A stretch of DNA of 64,000 nucleotides from Zhaonella formicivorans (GTDB lineage: Bacteria > Bacillota > DUOV01 > Zhaonellaceae): positions 1,064,001 through 1,128,000 of the forward strand of contig NZ_CP085524.1 of assembly GCF_004353525.1 (NCBI RefSeq), in the 5' to 3' direction. The notes under the pieces are model-generated. The model was not told where the DNA came from. It searched no databases and worked only from the letters and a program-made list of their open reading frames with translations. Positions 45,438 to 51,199 of the stretch are shown here, one piece after another; position 1 is the stretch's first letter, and each line of letters opens with the position of its first letter. A program made the translations under genes and the position numbers.

Positions 45438-46349
45438 TCACGCGAAAAGCGCTTCCACAAACTCGTGGGAATTGAAATCTTTTAAGTCATCAATTTTCTC
45501 ACCTATGCCCACTAATTTTACCGGGATATCCAACTGCGAGGAAACCGCAATAATGACGCCACCCTTAGCCGTACCGTCAAGTTTTGTTAAAGCGATAGCT
45601 GTAACCCCTGTGGCTTCTCCAAATAATTTTGCCTGGGCTACAGCATTTTGACCAGTGGTTGCATCCAGTACCAACAGAACTTCGTGAGGCGCTCCAGGTA
45701 ATTCCCTTTCTATAACTCTTCGAACCTTGCGAACTTCTTCCATTAAGTTCACTTTGTTATGCAGCCTGCCGGCCGTATCAATTAATACCACATCCACCTG
45801 TCGTGATTTGGCAGCTTGTATTCCATCAAAAGCCACAGCTGCTGGATCCGCCCCTTCTTGATGTTTAATCAACTCCGCGCCGACGCGGTTAGCCCATATT
45901 TCCAGCTGATCAATGGCTGCAGCTCGGAAAGTGTCACCCGCTACCAGCAGTACCTTTTTACCTTCCTGCTTCAGTTTATACGCTAATTTTCCAATAGTAG
46001 TTGTTTTGCCAACCCCATTTACCCCAACTACCATAATGACTGCCGGGCCTGGAGCGGGTAAGTTTAATGGCTCGCTATTCGAACCAAGCATGGCAGCAAT
46101 TTCTTCTTTTAAAATCGCCTTCACTGCATCGGGAGTTTCAGCCTTATGTATTCTAGCTTTTTCCCGCAAATTATCCACTAATTTTATGGCTCCTTGGACG
46201 CCTACATCAGCTTGGATCAGCAGGGCTTCAAGCTCTTCATAAAAATCCTCATCCAACTTTTTATAGCCTGTTACCAGTTCGGTAACTTTATCAACAAGCC
46301 CTTGCCTGGTTTTAGCCAGTCCTTCTTTCAAACGGTCAATAAGTCCCAT
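45438..46349 (-). CDS. ftsY: Signal recognition particle receptor FtsY
   Basis: Docks ribosome-SRP complexes at the membrane. The 303-residue protein lacks the long acidic domain of E. coli FtsY, as in other Firmicutes. It shows GVNGVGKTTTIGKLAYKL near residue 105, DTAGRLHNKVNLMEEL-type G3 and TKLDGTAKGGVII. ATG 46349 follows GGGAGGT by seven bases. Confidence 0.97.
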   Translation of the reverse strand: MGLIDRLKEGLAKTRQGLVDKVTELVTGYKKLDEDFYEELEALLIQADVGVQGAIKLVDNLREKARIHKAETPDAVKAILKEEIAAMLGSNSEPLNLPAPGPAVIMVVGVNGVGKTTTIGKLAYKLKQEGKKVLLVAGDTFRAAAIDQLEIWANRVGAELIKHQEGADPAAVAFDGIQAAKSRQVDVVLIDTAGRLHNKVNLMEEVRKVRRVIERELPGAPHEVLLVLDATTGQNAVAQAKLFGEATGVTAIALTKLDGTAKGGVIIAVSSQLDIPVKLVGIGEKIDDLKDFNSHEFVEALFA

Positions 46350-46398: not shown

Positions 46399-46422
46399 CC
46401 ATGCAATATTTTACCACAGCTG

Positions 46423-47559
46423 TTATCTTATCTCAATTGTTTTGCATAAACCTGTATAATCCTGAGCAATACCAAATTTTCTATTGCGGATCTGCGCCTC
46501 TTCTTCAGGGGTCTTGGCAGTAAAAAACTGGAGATTCAAAATTTCGTCCTCGTCTGCCAGTTCAAAAAGTTGATCAGTAACTTCTATTACGGTGGCTCCC
46601 TGGATAGAGCCATCCTTATCATGCCCGATAGCAATGATTGGCCTGCCCCATGTGCCGGGACCGGCATGGGCATCCCCAATGTGCATCACACCGGTGCCAC
46701 CCGGGTGAGTGTGAACTATCACTGCATTCTCCGGGACAAACTCGCTATAAATAGTTTTTAATGATTTCCCACTGATGTCTACACCGCTTGAGGCCAGCAA
46801 TCTTGCAGGAACATAGCCAATGCCCCCATGAACTATTTTCCCATGAGGCAAAACTGTGCCATCCTCGGTGAGCAGCCCCAGCATTGCCACTTCCCTACCT
46901 TGACCGATTTCCATCGATTCAGCCACCAATGCATCAGCCAATTCTTTGCTGAGGGATTGAACTTTTAAGCGAGGCAAAGTCCAATCTTTTTTTGCCAAAT
47001 TGCCGTTCACCGGAGGAGCCTCCGGTAAATCAACCACCTCCAGCGAGCGCCCCACTTCCAGGTAGCGCAACCCCAGCTCATTATTCTGGCGCAGGATTTC
47101 TTTTTCCTCTTCCATGGTTCTGGTCGTAAGGGTAGCTAAATTTAATTCTTCCGCATGGGTAGCTAAATTAAAATACCCTGCTTCCGGAAAGATAATGCCT
47201 ACTCCCGCCAGGCCTTGGTTTTTGACCCCAATATTGACAATAGGCATGTTAAAAAAGTCTACCCCGGACACCTCGGTAATTAATCCGGTTTTTCCTGGTC
47301 GTGTACTTATAAACACAGTGTTTGCCGGAAGCTGCTCCAGGCATTCCAGCAAGGAATTGTGTTTAATATCCACCAGTTTGGAGAGTAAAATCCTTAACGG
47401 AATACCGCTTAAGCCGCCGTCAACCATTTCAGAGCAAGCGGAAATATATCCCTGTTCATCGACAAAGCCAAAGCAGCCTACATTTCGCCCTTGGCTGAGC
47501 TCGCTTGTCCGTTTTACCATGGAGTCTACAATATACCTGGCTATACCCTTAATCCGCAT
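46423..47559 (-). CDS. Two-domain JAMM-like metallopeptidase-related protein
   Basis: A 378-residue protein with two homologous halves (about 8-125 and 205-330). The C-terminal half has the residues of a JAMM/MPN+ metal site: Glu223 in GREVAMLGLLTEDG, then VIVHTHPGGTGVMHIGD with His283, His285 and Asp296. In the N-terminal half the equivalents are Asn26 (GRNVGCFGF) and STRPGKTG at residues 85-92, so the metal ligands are lost. No signal peptide or membrane segment is seen. I do not recognise a named family. The assignment rests on motif spacing and the internal repeat. It sits between smc and ftsY, 52 bases after the smc stop. A peptidase or deubiquitinase-like activity is only a possibility. 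Confidence 0.6.
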   Translation of the reverse strand: MRIKGIARYIVDSMVKRTSELSQGRNVGCFGFVDEQGYISACSEMVDGGLSGIPLRILLSKLVDIKHNSLLECLEQLPANTVFISTRPGKTGLITEVSGVDFFNMPIVNIGVKNQGLAGVGIIFPEAGYFNLATHAEELNLATLTTRTMEEEKEILRQNNELGLRYLEVGRSLEVVDLPEAPPVNGNLAKKDWTLPRLKVQSLSKELADALVAESMEIGQGREVAMLGLLTEDGTVLPHGKIVHGGIGYVPARLLASSGVDISGKSLKTIYSEFVPENAVIVHTHPGGTGVMHIGDAHAGPGTWGRPIIAIGHDKDGSIQGATVIEVTDQLFELADEDEILNLQFFTAKTPEEEAQIRNRKFGIAQDYTGLCKTIEIR

Positions 47560-47611
47560 CTTTTCTCCTCCTGCAACACGTTTAACATATTTTGCCCTGG
47601 TACTGTGCTAC

Positions 47612-50600
47612 CTATGCGCTTTGCGCCTGCTTTGGTGGGCTTTCCGTCAAACGAACGGAAAGCAATTTGGATACGCCCGATTCTTCCATGGTAACTCCGT
47701 ATAATGCATCGGCCGCTTCTATAGTACCCTGTCTGTGGGAAATTACGATAAATTGGGTTTTTTGACTAAAAACCTTGAGAAATTCTGCAAACCTGTCTAC
47801 GTTTGCCTCGTCCAAAGAGGCTTCAATTTCATCCAGAACACAGAAGGGGCTTGGTTTTACCCTTAAAATAGCAAACAATAATGCTATAGCCGTTAAAGCT
47901 CTTTCTCCTCCCGAAAGCAACGTCAAGTTTTGCAGTTTTTTCCCAGGCGGTTGGGCAATGATTTCTATACCTGTTTCCAGCAAGTTCTCGGGCTCGGTTA
48001 GCTCCAACTTAGCGTTACCGCCCCCAAACAACTCCCTGAATACCTGGCTAAAAGCTTGCCCCAGCTTCTGGTAAGTATCCGCAAACCTTTTTACCATAAT
48101 TGCATCAATTTCTTCAATAACCTTATCCAGAGCTATTTTAGCCTCCTTTAGATCTTGCTCTTGCTTGCACAAAAAATCGTGTCGTTCCCTTAAGCGCTGA
48201 TACTCTTCCATAGCTGAGAGATTAACGCTGCCCAGGCTGTTTAAATCACGGCGCAATTTACGTACCCTGTTATTAATTTCTGCTAAATCATCAATATCGG
48301 TTTTTCGGGCCAAAGCTTGCTCATAAGTAAGCTGAAATCTTTCTTCAATCCGTTTTAGGCCATTATTTTTTTCGCTCTCCAGCCTGGCATGATCGAGCTC
48401 CAACTCATGCAATTCTTCTTTAGCCATGCCTAGTTCTTTAAACTTTGCTTTGGCCTGTTGCTCCAGTTCATTTAATGTGCATTTTAATTCTTCCCGGGCA
48501 CGAGTTTTCATTTGCATCAGTTCATTAAGGCGACTTTTTTCCTGCAATACTTGGACAATTAGTTTTTTCTTGCCCGCAATCAGTCGTTCCAACTCATTCT
48601 TTTTGACCTCGAGCTCAGCTATTTCTTTCTTTCTTGCTGCTATCAAATTCTGCAGCTCTTGACCCATTGTATAAAAATCAGCCAATTCGGTTTGATAACT
48701 TTTTTCCTTTTGCAGCAACGCCGCCAATTCCACTTTGCGTAACGTTAATTCCTCAAGCTGTACTCTATTTTTCTCTTTCTTATCTTGTAAAAGCTGACGC
48801 TTGGAGTCGGCTGAAGCTGTACGGGAAGCATTCTCCGCCTCAAGCACCTCAATTCGCATTTGCAAACTCAGTTGTTCCTTTTTGTTCCTTTCCAGCTCTT
48901 TTTCCAGTTCTTTGTTTTCCAACTGCAAAAATTCCAGTTCTTTTTGTAATTTTAGACTCTCCTCTTCTAAATTCTGAAGTTCCTGTTTTTTACCCAAAAT
49001 ATGTAAGTTTAATCCTTGAGTTTCTTGTTCTATATCATTGAGTTCATGCACTAACGCTTCTACTCTTTCTGCCAGCTCTTTGATTTGCCTTGAGACAGCT
49101 TCCGCTTGCTGGCGCTTAGCAGTAATAGCGTGTTCCAACTCCCTAATTTCCCTGGGTCTAGTAAGTAAACCCGTACTCTTTTTTCCTGCACTTCCCCCTG
49201 TTATGGAACCTCCAGGGCTAATAATGTCCCCTTCCAGAGTAACAATCTTCACATTATAGCTGCTCTGTTTTGCCAAAGTGACAGCACAGTTCAAATCCTT
49301 AACTACTAAAATATTACCAAGTAAATGGTGTACTACTTTTTGGTAAGCAGGAGCTATTTCAACCAGTTGCGCAGCAATGCCGATAACCCCTGCAGCAGAA
49401 AGCAACTTTTTCCCCTCTTCATTTAATTCCCTGATTTTAATTGCATTTAAAGGCAGAAAAGTGGCCCTTCCCCCATGATTAGCTTTTAAGTAAGCAATTG
49501 CAGTTTCTGCATCCCGGGTAGTCTCAGCCACCAGGTTTTGCAAACTGCCACCCAGCGCCACCTCGATGGCTTTTTCGTACTCAGGACGCACAATTATGAG
49601 TTCACCCACAACGCCACAAATTCCTTGGCAATTCTTATTACCCTGAGCCTTAGCCTGCAAAACCGACTTGACCCCCTGAAAATACCCCTCGTGCTCTTTT
49701 TCCATGTCTTTAAGCACTTGCTGGCGGGAAAGCAAACCGCTTAAGCTTTGCTGCAGCTTCCCTAACTGCTGTTGATACTCCTGGATTTTTAGTTCCGCCT
49801 CTTTTTTCCTGGCCTGTATTGCTGCTTTGGCTTGCAGTTGTTCGTGCAGTTTCTTTTCAGCAAGAGCTAAACCGGAACTTAACCCTTCCTTTTCGCATGT
49901 CAGCCGTCCCGTCTTAGCTAAAATCTCTTGCAGCCGGGCTTGATTTTTGCCAAACCTTTGTTCCGCATGGGCATGCTCAAAAGTGAGCTGATTATAACTG
50001 TTCTTAGTATTGGCAATTTCCTGCAAGCAGTTGATGATCTCGTTTTTAATGCCTTCCAGCATTTTTTCTACTTCCAGACATTCCTGATTGGCACTGGCTA
50101 GTTGTTTCTCCTCATACCTGATTTCTTGTTCTTTTAGCATTAAATCCTGTTTTAGCTTCTGGTGTTCCTCGGCTTGTACCTTGAATCTGTTTTGCAGTTG
50201 CGCTTCTTTGGTGCAATATTCCTCTAAATCCTTTTGGGCCCTTTCCATTTGCTGTATAATTGCTTTTAAACGTTCTTCCGAAACCCCCACCAAATTCTCT
50301 GTTTGGCTTAATTTGTTGGTCATTTGACCCAGATCGTTTCGGATTTGGGATAATTCTTCATCCAGGCGGCTCAACTCCAGCTTTTCCCGCTCCAGCTGTG
50401 AATCCAACGATTGATATCCTGCTTCCAGCTGATAAATCAACAAGCGTTTCTCATCCAAATCCCTTGTAATTTTCTCCAGCTGCGTGAAGACCTTTTCCAA
50501 ATCTGCTACAGCTAAGTTTAATTCCAAAGTATCCAACTCGTTTTTAATTTCCTGATATTGTTCTGCTTTCTCGGCTTCCGCCTTAAGCGGTTCTAGGTTG

Positions 50601-51199
50601 ACGCCTAATTCTGCTATAATGTCTAAAATCCGGGCTAAGCTTTGTTCGGTTTCCTCCAGTTTTTTTAAGGCTTCCCGCTTACGGTTGCGATACTTGATTA
50701 TCCCAGCAGCTTCCTCCACAAGTGCACGCCGGTCCTCCGCCCTGGAGTTGAGAACTTCCTCTACCCGGCCTTGCCCAATGATGGCAAAAGATTCCCTGCC
50801 CAGGCCGGTATCGTTGAACAAATCATGCACATCTTTTAAACGGCAAGGGCTTTTATTGATCAAATATTCTCCTTCCCCTGAACGGAAAACTCTCCTGGTC
50901 ACTGTTACTTCGGCGTATGGTAATGGCAAAAGACCGGTACTGTTATCCAGTGTTAAGGACACTTCGGCCATACCAACGGCACGTCGCTCTGCACTCCCGG
51001 CAAAAATTACGTCCTCCATTTTTGCCCCTCTTAAAGTCCTGGCGCTTTGCTCCCCCAGCACCCAGCGTATTCCATCACTGATATTGCTTTTTCCGCTGCC
51101 GTTTGGACCTATAACTGCGGTTATTCCGGGTTGAAACTCCAGTTTAACTTTATCTGCGAAAGATTTGAATCCTTGCATTTCAAGGCTTTTTAAATACAA
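47612..51199 (-). CDS. smc: Chromosome segregation ATPase SMC
   Basis: Forms ring-shaped dimers that organise and segregate the chromosome with ScpA and ScpB. It is 1195 residues long. The Walker A loop is GPNGSGKSNISDGIRWVLG near residue 32. Two long coiled coils flank the hinge (about 515-640, GVVGELIIVRPEYEKAIEVALGG). The signature LLSGGERALTAIALLFAIL and Walker B FCVLDEIEASLDEANVDRF lie near the C-terminus. A TTG start follows AGGAGG by eight bases. The order rnc-smc-ftsY is conserved, although spoVS and the JAMM-like gene are inserted here. Confidence 0.97.
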   Translation of the reverse strand: MYLKSLEMQGFKSFADKVKLEFQPGITAVIGPNGSGKSNISDGIRWVLGEQSARTLRGAKMEDVIFAGSAERRAVGMAEVSLTLDNSTGLLPLPYAEVTVTRRVFRSGEGEYLINKSPCRLKDVHDLFNDTGLGRESFAIIGQGRVEEVLNSRAEDRRALVEEAAGIIKYRNRKREALKKLEETEQSLARILDIIAELGVNLEPLKAEAEKAEQYQEIKNELDTLELNLAVADLEKVFTQLEKITRDLDEKRLLIYQLEAGYQSLDSQLEREKLELSRLDEELSQIRNDLGQMTNKLSQTENLVGVSEERLKAIIQQMERAQKDLEEYCTKEAQLQNRFKVQAEEHQKLKQDLMLKEQEIRYEEKQLASANQECLEVEKMLEGIKNEIINCLQEIANTKNSYNQLTFEHAHAEQRFGKNQARLQEILAKTGRLTCEKEGLSSGLALAEKKLHEQLQAKAAIQARKKEAELKIQEYQQQLGKLQQSLSGLLSRQQVLKDMEKEHEGYFQGVKSVLQAKAQGNKNCQGICGVVGELIIVRPEYEKAIEVALGGSLQNLVAETTRDAETAIAYLKANHGGRATFLPLNAIKIRELNEEGKKLLSAAGVIGIAAQLVEIAPAYQKVVHHLLGNILVVKDLNCAVTLAKQSSYNVKIVTLEGDIISPGGSITGGSAGKKSTGLLTRPREIRELEHAITAKRQQAEAVSRQIKELAERVEALVHELNDIEQETQGLNLHILGKKQELQNLEEESLKLQKELEFLQLENKELEKELERNKKEQLSLQMRIEVLEAENASRTASADSKRQLLQDKKEKNRVQLEELTLRKVELAALLQKEKSYQTELADFYTMGQELQNLIAARKKEIAELEVKKNELERLIAGKKKLIVQVLQEKSRLNELMQMKTRAREELKCTLNELEQQAKAKFKELGMAKEELHELELDHARLESEKNNGLKRIEERFQLTYEQALARKTDIDDLAEINNRVRKLRRDLNSLGSVNLSAMEEYQRLRERHDFLCKQEQDLKEAKIALDKVIEEIDAIMVKRFADTYQKLGQAFSQVFRELFGGGNAKLELTEPENLLETGIEIIAQPPGKKLQNLTLLSGGERALTAIALLFAILRVKPSPFCVLDEIEASLDEANVDRFAEFLKVFSQKTQFIVISHRQGTIEAADALYGVTMEESGVSKLLSVRLTESPPKQAQSA

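Follow-up and report, generated by a model that had tools for sequence, protein, structure and literature searches.

Gene order and features of the TJ locus

The gene considered here, for which we use the name TJ (tandem JAMM-like protein), lies at nt 46423–47559 on the minus strand of the window, i.e. the whole 64,000-nucleotide stretch of DNA that was analysed. The ORF starts with ATG, encodes 378 aa, and is preceded by AGGAGG (nt 47572–47567, minus) 7 bases 5' of the start codon. Directly upstream is smc (nt 47612–51199, minus; Pfam SMC_N and SMC_hinge), separated from TJ by 52 bases, and 73 bases downstream begins ftsY (nt 45438–46349, minus; Pfam SRP54 and SRP54_N), which encodes the SRP receptor GTPase. 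The three genes are co-stranded, and the order along this strand is rnc, spoVS, smc, TJ, ftsY, an amidohydrolase gene, ylxM and ffh. As listed, the ftsY ORF has a TTG start and reaches nt 46406 (minus); the ATG at nt 46349 was adopted as the likelier start, since orthologue matches mostly begin at residues 18–21.

TJ is divided into two halves, both with a predicted MPN/JAMM fold. Half 1 (residues 1–178; nt 47026–47559, minus) has lost its metal site and is a pseudo-enzyme, while half 2 (residues 197–378; nt 46426–46971, minus) has kept the metal-site residues. The genome from which the window derives also carries a canonical Prok-JAB gene, separate from TJ (L067 1501–1842; G000:C1:2490804–2491145).

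Duplication within the gene

The original prediction held that the two halves are repeats of each other, and set GRNVGCFGF and STRPGKTG of half 1 against GREVAMLGL and HTHPGGTG of half 2. These motifs are correct as quoted, as are the residue numbers of Glu223, His283, His285 and Asp296, and the homology of the halves is borne out by hhalign. Comparison of their 17-sequence alignments gave a probability of 99.8 and a score of 188.9 (31% identity, 175 columns), far above the best of 100 column-shuffled controls (21.7). A model of half 2 alone recovered half 1 in 24/24 TJ-bearing genomes (119 searched), with E-values of 1e-19 to 2e-27.

Across 39 genomes, mean identity is 54% within half 1, 65% within half 2 and 29% between the two kinds. 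The closest pair of unlike halves shares 36%, compared to 39% (half 1) and 50% (half 2) for the most distant like pairs. As unlike halves are never as close to each other as like halves, the duplication predates the spread of the TJ gene. Half 2 is the better conserved, with 43 invariant residues relative to 17 in half 1, and a mean majority identity of 0.74 relative to 0.67.

Metal-site residues

Residue conservation was counted in 39 orthologues, representing 39 of the 40 genomes matched by TJ (G381 being without a locus). Glu223, His283, His285 and Asp296 of half 2 are each kept in 39/39, so that a loss of the HxHP...D residues in most homologues, which the original prediction had named as grounds against it, is not seen. 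T284, P286 and H293 are likewise invariant. Glu223 (nt 46891–46893, minus) is at the position of E22 of AfJAMM and is predicted to be the general acid-base, a role given by analogy to that set out in the available text of PMC300881. The segment HTHPGGTGVMHIGD (residues 283–296; nt 46672–46713, minus) contains the predicted zinc ligands H283, H285 and D296, with H293 at the position of the JAMM Ser.

The metal site of half 1 had been described as dead, and in the 39 orthologues the equivalents of both Glu and His are indeed lost. At the Glu position, N is found in 29/39 and E in 1/39; the first His position is occupied by S, T, M, I, V or F and the second by R, N, S, K or I, but never by H. The Asp position is a gap in the window protein. 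The degenerate equivalent of HTHP, STRP (residues 85–88; nt 47296–47307, minus), varies at its first and third positions but keeps T86 (39/39) and P88 (38/39), and the following G89 is kept in 39/39; in the GGxxGxxPxR stretch of either half, Gly, Pro and Arg hardly vary. A single chain of TJ thus has one domain that keeps the metal-site residues and one that lacks them, in agreement with the MPN−/MPN+ pairing that had been proposed. The term 'live', as applied to half 2, denotes conserved metal-site residues, as judged from sequence.

In the sections available of PMC300881, the JAMM motif is given as EXnHS/THX7SXXD. The spacing in TJ (H283-T-H285, seven residues, position 293, two residues, D296) fits HS/THX7SXXD except for a change of Ser to His. 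Of the features of a canonical MPN+/JAMM protein, the Glu on the first strand region is present, and so are the HS/TH and Asp ligands at their proper spacing, but in place of the Ser three residues before the Asp there is His293, in 39/39 orthologues, a substitution that the original prediction had missed. According to the same part of that source (PMC300881), the second Ser of the motif is placed like H231 of thermolysin and has a predicted role in stabilising the tetrahedral intermediate, and the S128A mutation of Csn5 abolished activity. Since it lacks this Ser, TJ was filed as a variant within the fold superfamily and not as a canonical JAMM enzyme.

Predicted fold

The AlphaFold model of the whole of TJ, based on a shallow alignment of 17 sequences, has a pLDDT of 93.1 and a pTM of 0.89, the latter indicating a confidently predicted packing of the halves; half 2 modelled alone gave 89.4 and 0.85. 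When compared to JAMM folds, each half is predicted to be MPN/JAMM, and an unrelated fold, which would have spoken against the initial assignment, was seen in neither. Foldseek searches with the whole model returned three matches at E<=0.001, all of them to JAMM1 of P. furiosus. With half 2 alone there were four at this threshold, namely JAMM1, the Rpn8-Rpn11 pair (twice) and BRISC, and the match to 5lda_A had an E-value of 2.9e-5 and a probability of 1.00.

Structural alignment with VIA-align 2 placed half 1 (model residues 2–176) on P. furiosus JAMM1 (5ld9_B; Z 10.0, 119 residues aligned, 3.5 A). Half 2 within the full model aligned to a Caldiarchaeum Rpn11 homologue (Z 7.6, 124 aligned, 3.2 A), and half 2 alone to JAMM1 (Z 8.2, 117 aligned, 2.9 A). 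Z values of 8–10 are moderate, and the fold is a prediction, not a solved structure. The matches listed for both models, among them Prp8, eIF3 subunits and 2kks, are MPN/JAMM proteins. On the evidence of the models, both halves appear to have the MPN-type alpha/beta fold of the JAMM/MPN superfamily.

Scans of TJ against Pfam and NCBIfam, as well as phmmer and profile searches of the PDB sequences, gave no relevant match. Seventeen TJ members run against Pfam with hmmscan returned stray matches only, the best being CarA_N (E 0.012). The search for a family name, which had been recommended at the outset, therefore shows that none of the Pfam or NCBIfam models covers TJ. Half 2 was also compared to seven Prok-JAB proteins using hhalign; the score of 19.3 is no higher than the best shuffle (19.5), though the registers of HxHP and D agree. 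Because the Prok-JAB profile score is not significant, in spite of the agreement in motif register, the JAMM homology of TJ rests on structure.

An N-terminal domain of HflX is related to TJ

The only sequence relative found for TJ is the N-terminal domain of long HflX proteins. It came to light through HflX GTPases of about 600 aa that the half-2 model matched weakly (E 0.008 to 0.6) and whose first ~190 residues carry REIAVYIN and HTHPASSGVLSGVD. Three weak matches of this model (E about 0.3) are in G011 and G092. The domain is present in 22/119 genomes (L117 121–1905, minus, in G025; loci L123–L144), and 20/22 keep HTHPx6SxxD. The two HflX domains without the motif are those of G040 and G116, and both genomes carry TJ. 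Pfam and NCBIfam leave the HflX N-terminal part uncovered in the example that was scanned, where the HflX models begin at about residue 180–200.

Aligned by hhalign, the HflX domain scored 49.0 against half 2 (best of 60 shuffles, 20.9) and 36.9 against half 1 (20.0), with the motif columns aligned, so that the profile similarity lies above the shuffled controls for both halves. While the motif was counted in all 22 loci, the alignment was built from 13: L142 is identical to L141 in the stretch compared, for L129, L135, L139 and L140 the ORF picked was truncated or was a neighbouring one, L132 and L133 were missed by the P-loop pattern, and L143 and L144 have lost the motif. The tie between TJ and the HflX domain is thus one of sequence, and that between TJ and JAMM proteins one of structure.

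Among the 119 genomes, 13 have both TJ and the HflX domain, 11 only TJ, 9 only the HflX domain and 86 neither (p 6e-6, with kinship ignored). Counted by family, TJ occurs in 13, the HflX domain in 15 and both in 7. The available text of a review on HflX (PMC12493154) notes N-terminal extensions in several Clostridium species too; the word 'metal' does not appear there, nor is a metal or protease domain mentioned. A literature search that took in few subscription journals found no published description of TJ or of a JAMM domain on HflX.

Comparison with known systems

The HflX N-terminal extension is homologous to both halves of TJ and has the REvA and HTHP stretches in common with them, but it is present in single copy, is fused to HflX, and retains the canonical Ser. 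The archaeal MPN+ proteins, JAMM1 of P. furiosus and AfJAMM, share with TJ the fold and the equally spaced E, HxHP and D (motif of AfJAMM as given in the accessible part of PMC300881), yet are single-domain proteins with the canonical Ser and only about 10% identity in structural alignments. Prok-JAB proteins (PF14464) have HxHP...D in the same register, but their profile score lies inside the shuffled range and there is no Pfam match to TJ.

The closest parallels in architecture are BRCC36-KIAA0157, Rpn11-Rpn8 and Csn5-Csn6, where a metal-bearing MPN is paired with a metal-less MPN, a likeness that in TJ is one of residues. Those pairs are eukaryotic, are formed by two chains and act on ubiquitin or Nedd8 substrates, whereas TJ is one chain with the MPN− domain first. 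In the portions available of PMC4579573, contacts from KIAA0157 are described as buttressing the E-loop and catalytic glutamate of BRCC36, the pseudo-MPN thereby activating its partner. Both the fold and the type of chemistry are already known, and what is new is the single-chain bacterial MPN−/MPN+ tandem with a Ser to His change, together with its relative on HflX.

Distribution, gene neighbourhood and descent

TJ was found in 40/398 genomes of the phylum to which the window belongs, in each case as a single copy without internal stops. A single-sequence scan of the genome contigs, which is of low sensitivity, found only 5 loci, all in genomes already among the 40. That TJ lies between smc and ftsY is confirmed, and this placement is conserved, as examined in 25 loci from 23 genomes (L016/L056 and L018/L055 being on the same contigs). 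The emphasis originally placed on smc needs adjusting, however: smc does precede TJ in 22/23 genomes, but the better conserved flank is ftsY, which follows TJ on the same strand in 23/23. The exception is G052, where an unrelated ORF is upstream of TJ and TJ-ftsY is kept; its sister G006 has the same arrangement as far as its shorter locus extends. The genus of G006 and G052 has lost the smc side and retained TJ-ftsY.

Eighteen loci from genomes lacking TJ were available among 30 ftsY loci inspected (out of 55 ftsY matches). In 15/18 of these, smc lies upstream of ftsY at a distance of no more than 1.5 kb. TJ has thus been placed in an otherwise old neighbourhood; its operon is an old housekeeping operon. 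A diverged TJ was sought upstream of ftsY in five loci of TJ-lacking genomes and none was seen. Two such genomes have a long smc-ftsY gap, one with an unrelated ORF and the other without a convincing gene. In G047, the spot usually taken by TJ between smc and ftsY is occupied by an unrelated ORF (L161 633–1433, plus), presumably related to the undecaprenyl-diphosphatase UppP. Distances between TJ proteins correlate with those between FtsY proteins (Mantel r 0.77, 23 genomes; 0/999 permutations as high). This fits vertical descent, and the neighbourhood alone is accordingly weak evidence of function.

Proposed function and alternatives

The tandem live/dead JAMM-fold architecture of TJ is very probable. 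That TJ is a single-chain pseudo-enzyme/enzyme variant of the JAMM-like metallopeptidases is our preferred reading, to which we give a probability of about 0.6, and catalysis by TJ, as suggested by its residues, its models and analogy to known enzymes, is favoured somewhat over its absence. TJ would be a soluble single chain of two JAMM/MPN-fold domains born of duplication within one gene. Half 2 would bind zinc via H283, H285 and D296, and E223 would activate a water molecule for attack on an amide bond, either peptide or isopeptide. H293, standing at the place of the JAMM Ser, itself positioned like H231 of thermolysin, may stabilise the oxyanion in the thermolysin manner. Half 1 could be an MPN-minus partner built into the chain, giving the active site its shape or holding the substrate, much as KIAA0157 does for BRCC36. 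Against this reading, the JAMM Ser, which is required in Csn5, is absent, profiles reach no named JAMM family, and the VIA-align Z values are moderate.

The absence of the catalytic Ser would suit a protein whose two halves serve for binding, with a metal of structural role in the intact site, so that TJ acts in assembly or as an adaptor. MPN domains of Prp8 and eIF3 are assembly/adaptor modules, and many such non-enzymatic MPN proteins (Prp8 and eIF3) are among the structural matches. The near-invariant Gly, Pro and Arg of GGxxGxxPxR in both halves indicate that a non-catalytic surface is conserved too. On the other hand, a pure scaffold need not retain an acid-base Glu, yet E223, H283, H285 and D296 are invariant in 39/39, and half 2 is more conserved than half 1. 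We regard a scaffold as the most serious competitor, but unlikely.

Less probable still is that TJ, like other bacterial JAMMs, serves in ubiquitin-like (Ubl) deconjugation or sulfur-carrier processing by cutting a ThiS/MoaD-like protein off its partner. No Ubl or E1 gene is found among the TJ neighbours, from rnc to ffh, and the genome already has its separate canonical Prok-JAB gene (G000:C1:2490804), even though the top structural match, P. furiosus JAMM1, has also been solved with the ubiquitin-like SAMP2, and prokaryotic JAB domains are often beside E1 and Ubl genes (available text of PMC1779556).

That TJ is a partner of SMC on the chromosome or in DNA repair, in the way of RadC (a JAMM-like family), is very improbable, for although smc is immediately upstream of TJ in 22/23 genomes, one genus has TJ-ftsY without an adjoining smc, and HflX, to which the detected relative is fused, is a GTPase associated with the ribosome.

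For the tandem metallopeptidase, the fixed ftsY neighbour and the relation to HflX hint at translation or protein targeting, and a protein located at the ribosome or at the SRP receptor might be its substrate; a role at either site is doubtful at present. It is with similar caution that we suggest a wider scheme, in which the JAMM metallopeptidases include an undescribed bacterial branch, made up of TJ and the HflX N-terminal domain and tied to the translation and targeting GTPases HflX and FtsY. In this scheme TJ would have re-created the eukaryotic MPN−/MPN+ pair in one chain, with a thermolysin-like His for Ser, and would act at the ribosome or SRP receptor to trim or release proteins. If so, a single-chain pseudo-enzyme/enzyme JAMM evolved in bacteria separately from the eukaryotic pairs, by duplication inside the gene, and HflX, a ribosome-splitting factor, carries a JAMM-like domain that has gone unrecognised. 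One could then test directly for hydrolysis at the ribosome or SRP receptor of bacteria, and TJ, having His instead of Ser at the oxyanion position, would put the likeness to thermolysin proposed for JAMM chemistry to a natural test. The relation of TJ to the front domain of the ribosome-rescue factor HflX is itself a testable lead on function.

A role for TJ in sporulation was considered and rejected. SpoIVA is present in 24/24 TJ-bearing genomes and in 79/95 of the others (119 in total; Fisher p 0.04), an association that is too weak and is confounded by descent. Two of the SpoIVA matches lie in open frames that, at about 1000 aa, are double the normal size (G010:C1:1342002, 1001 aa; G094:C2:147559, 999 aa).
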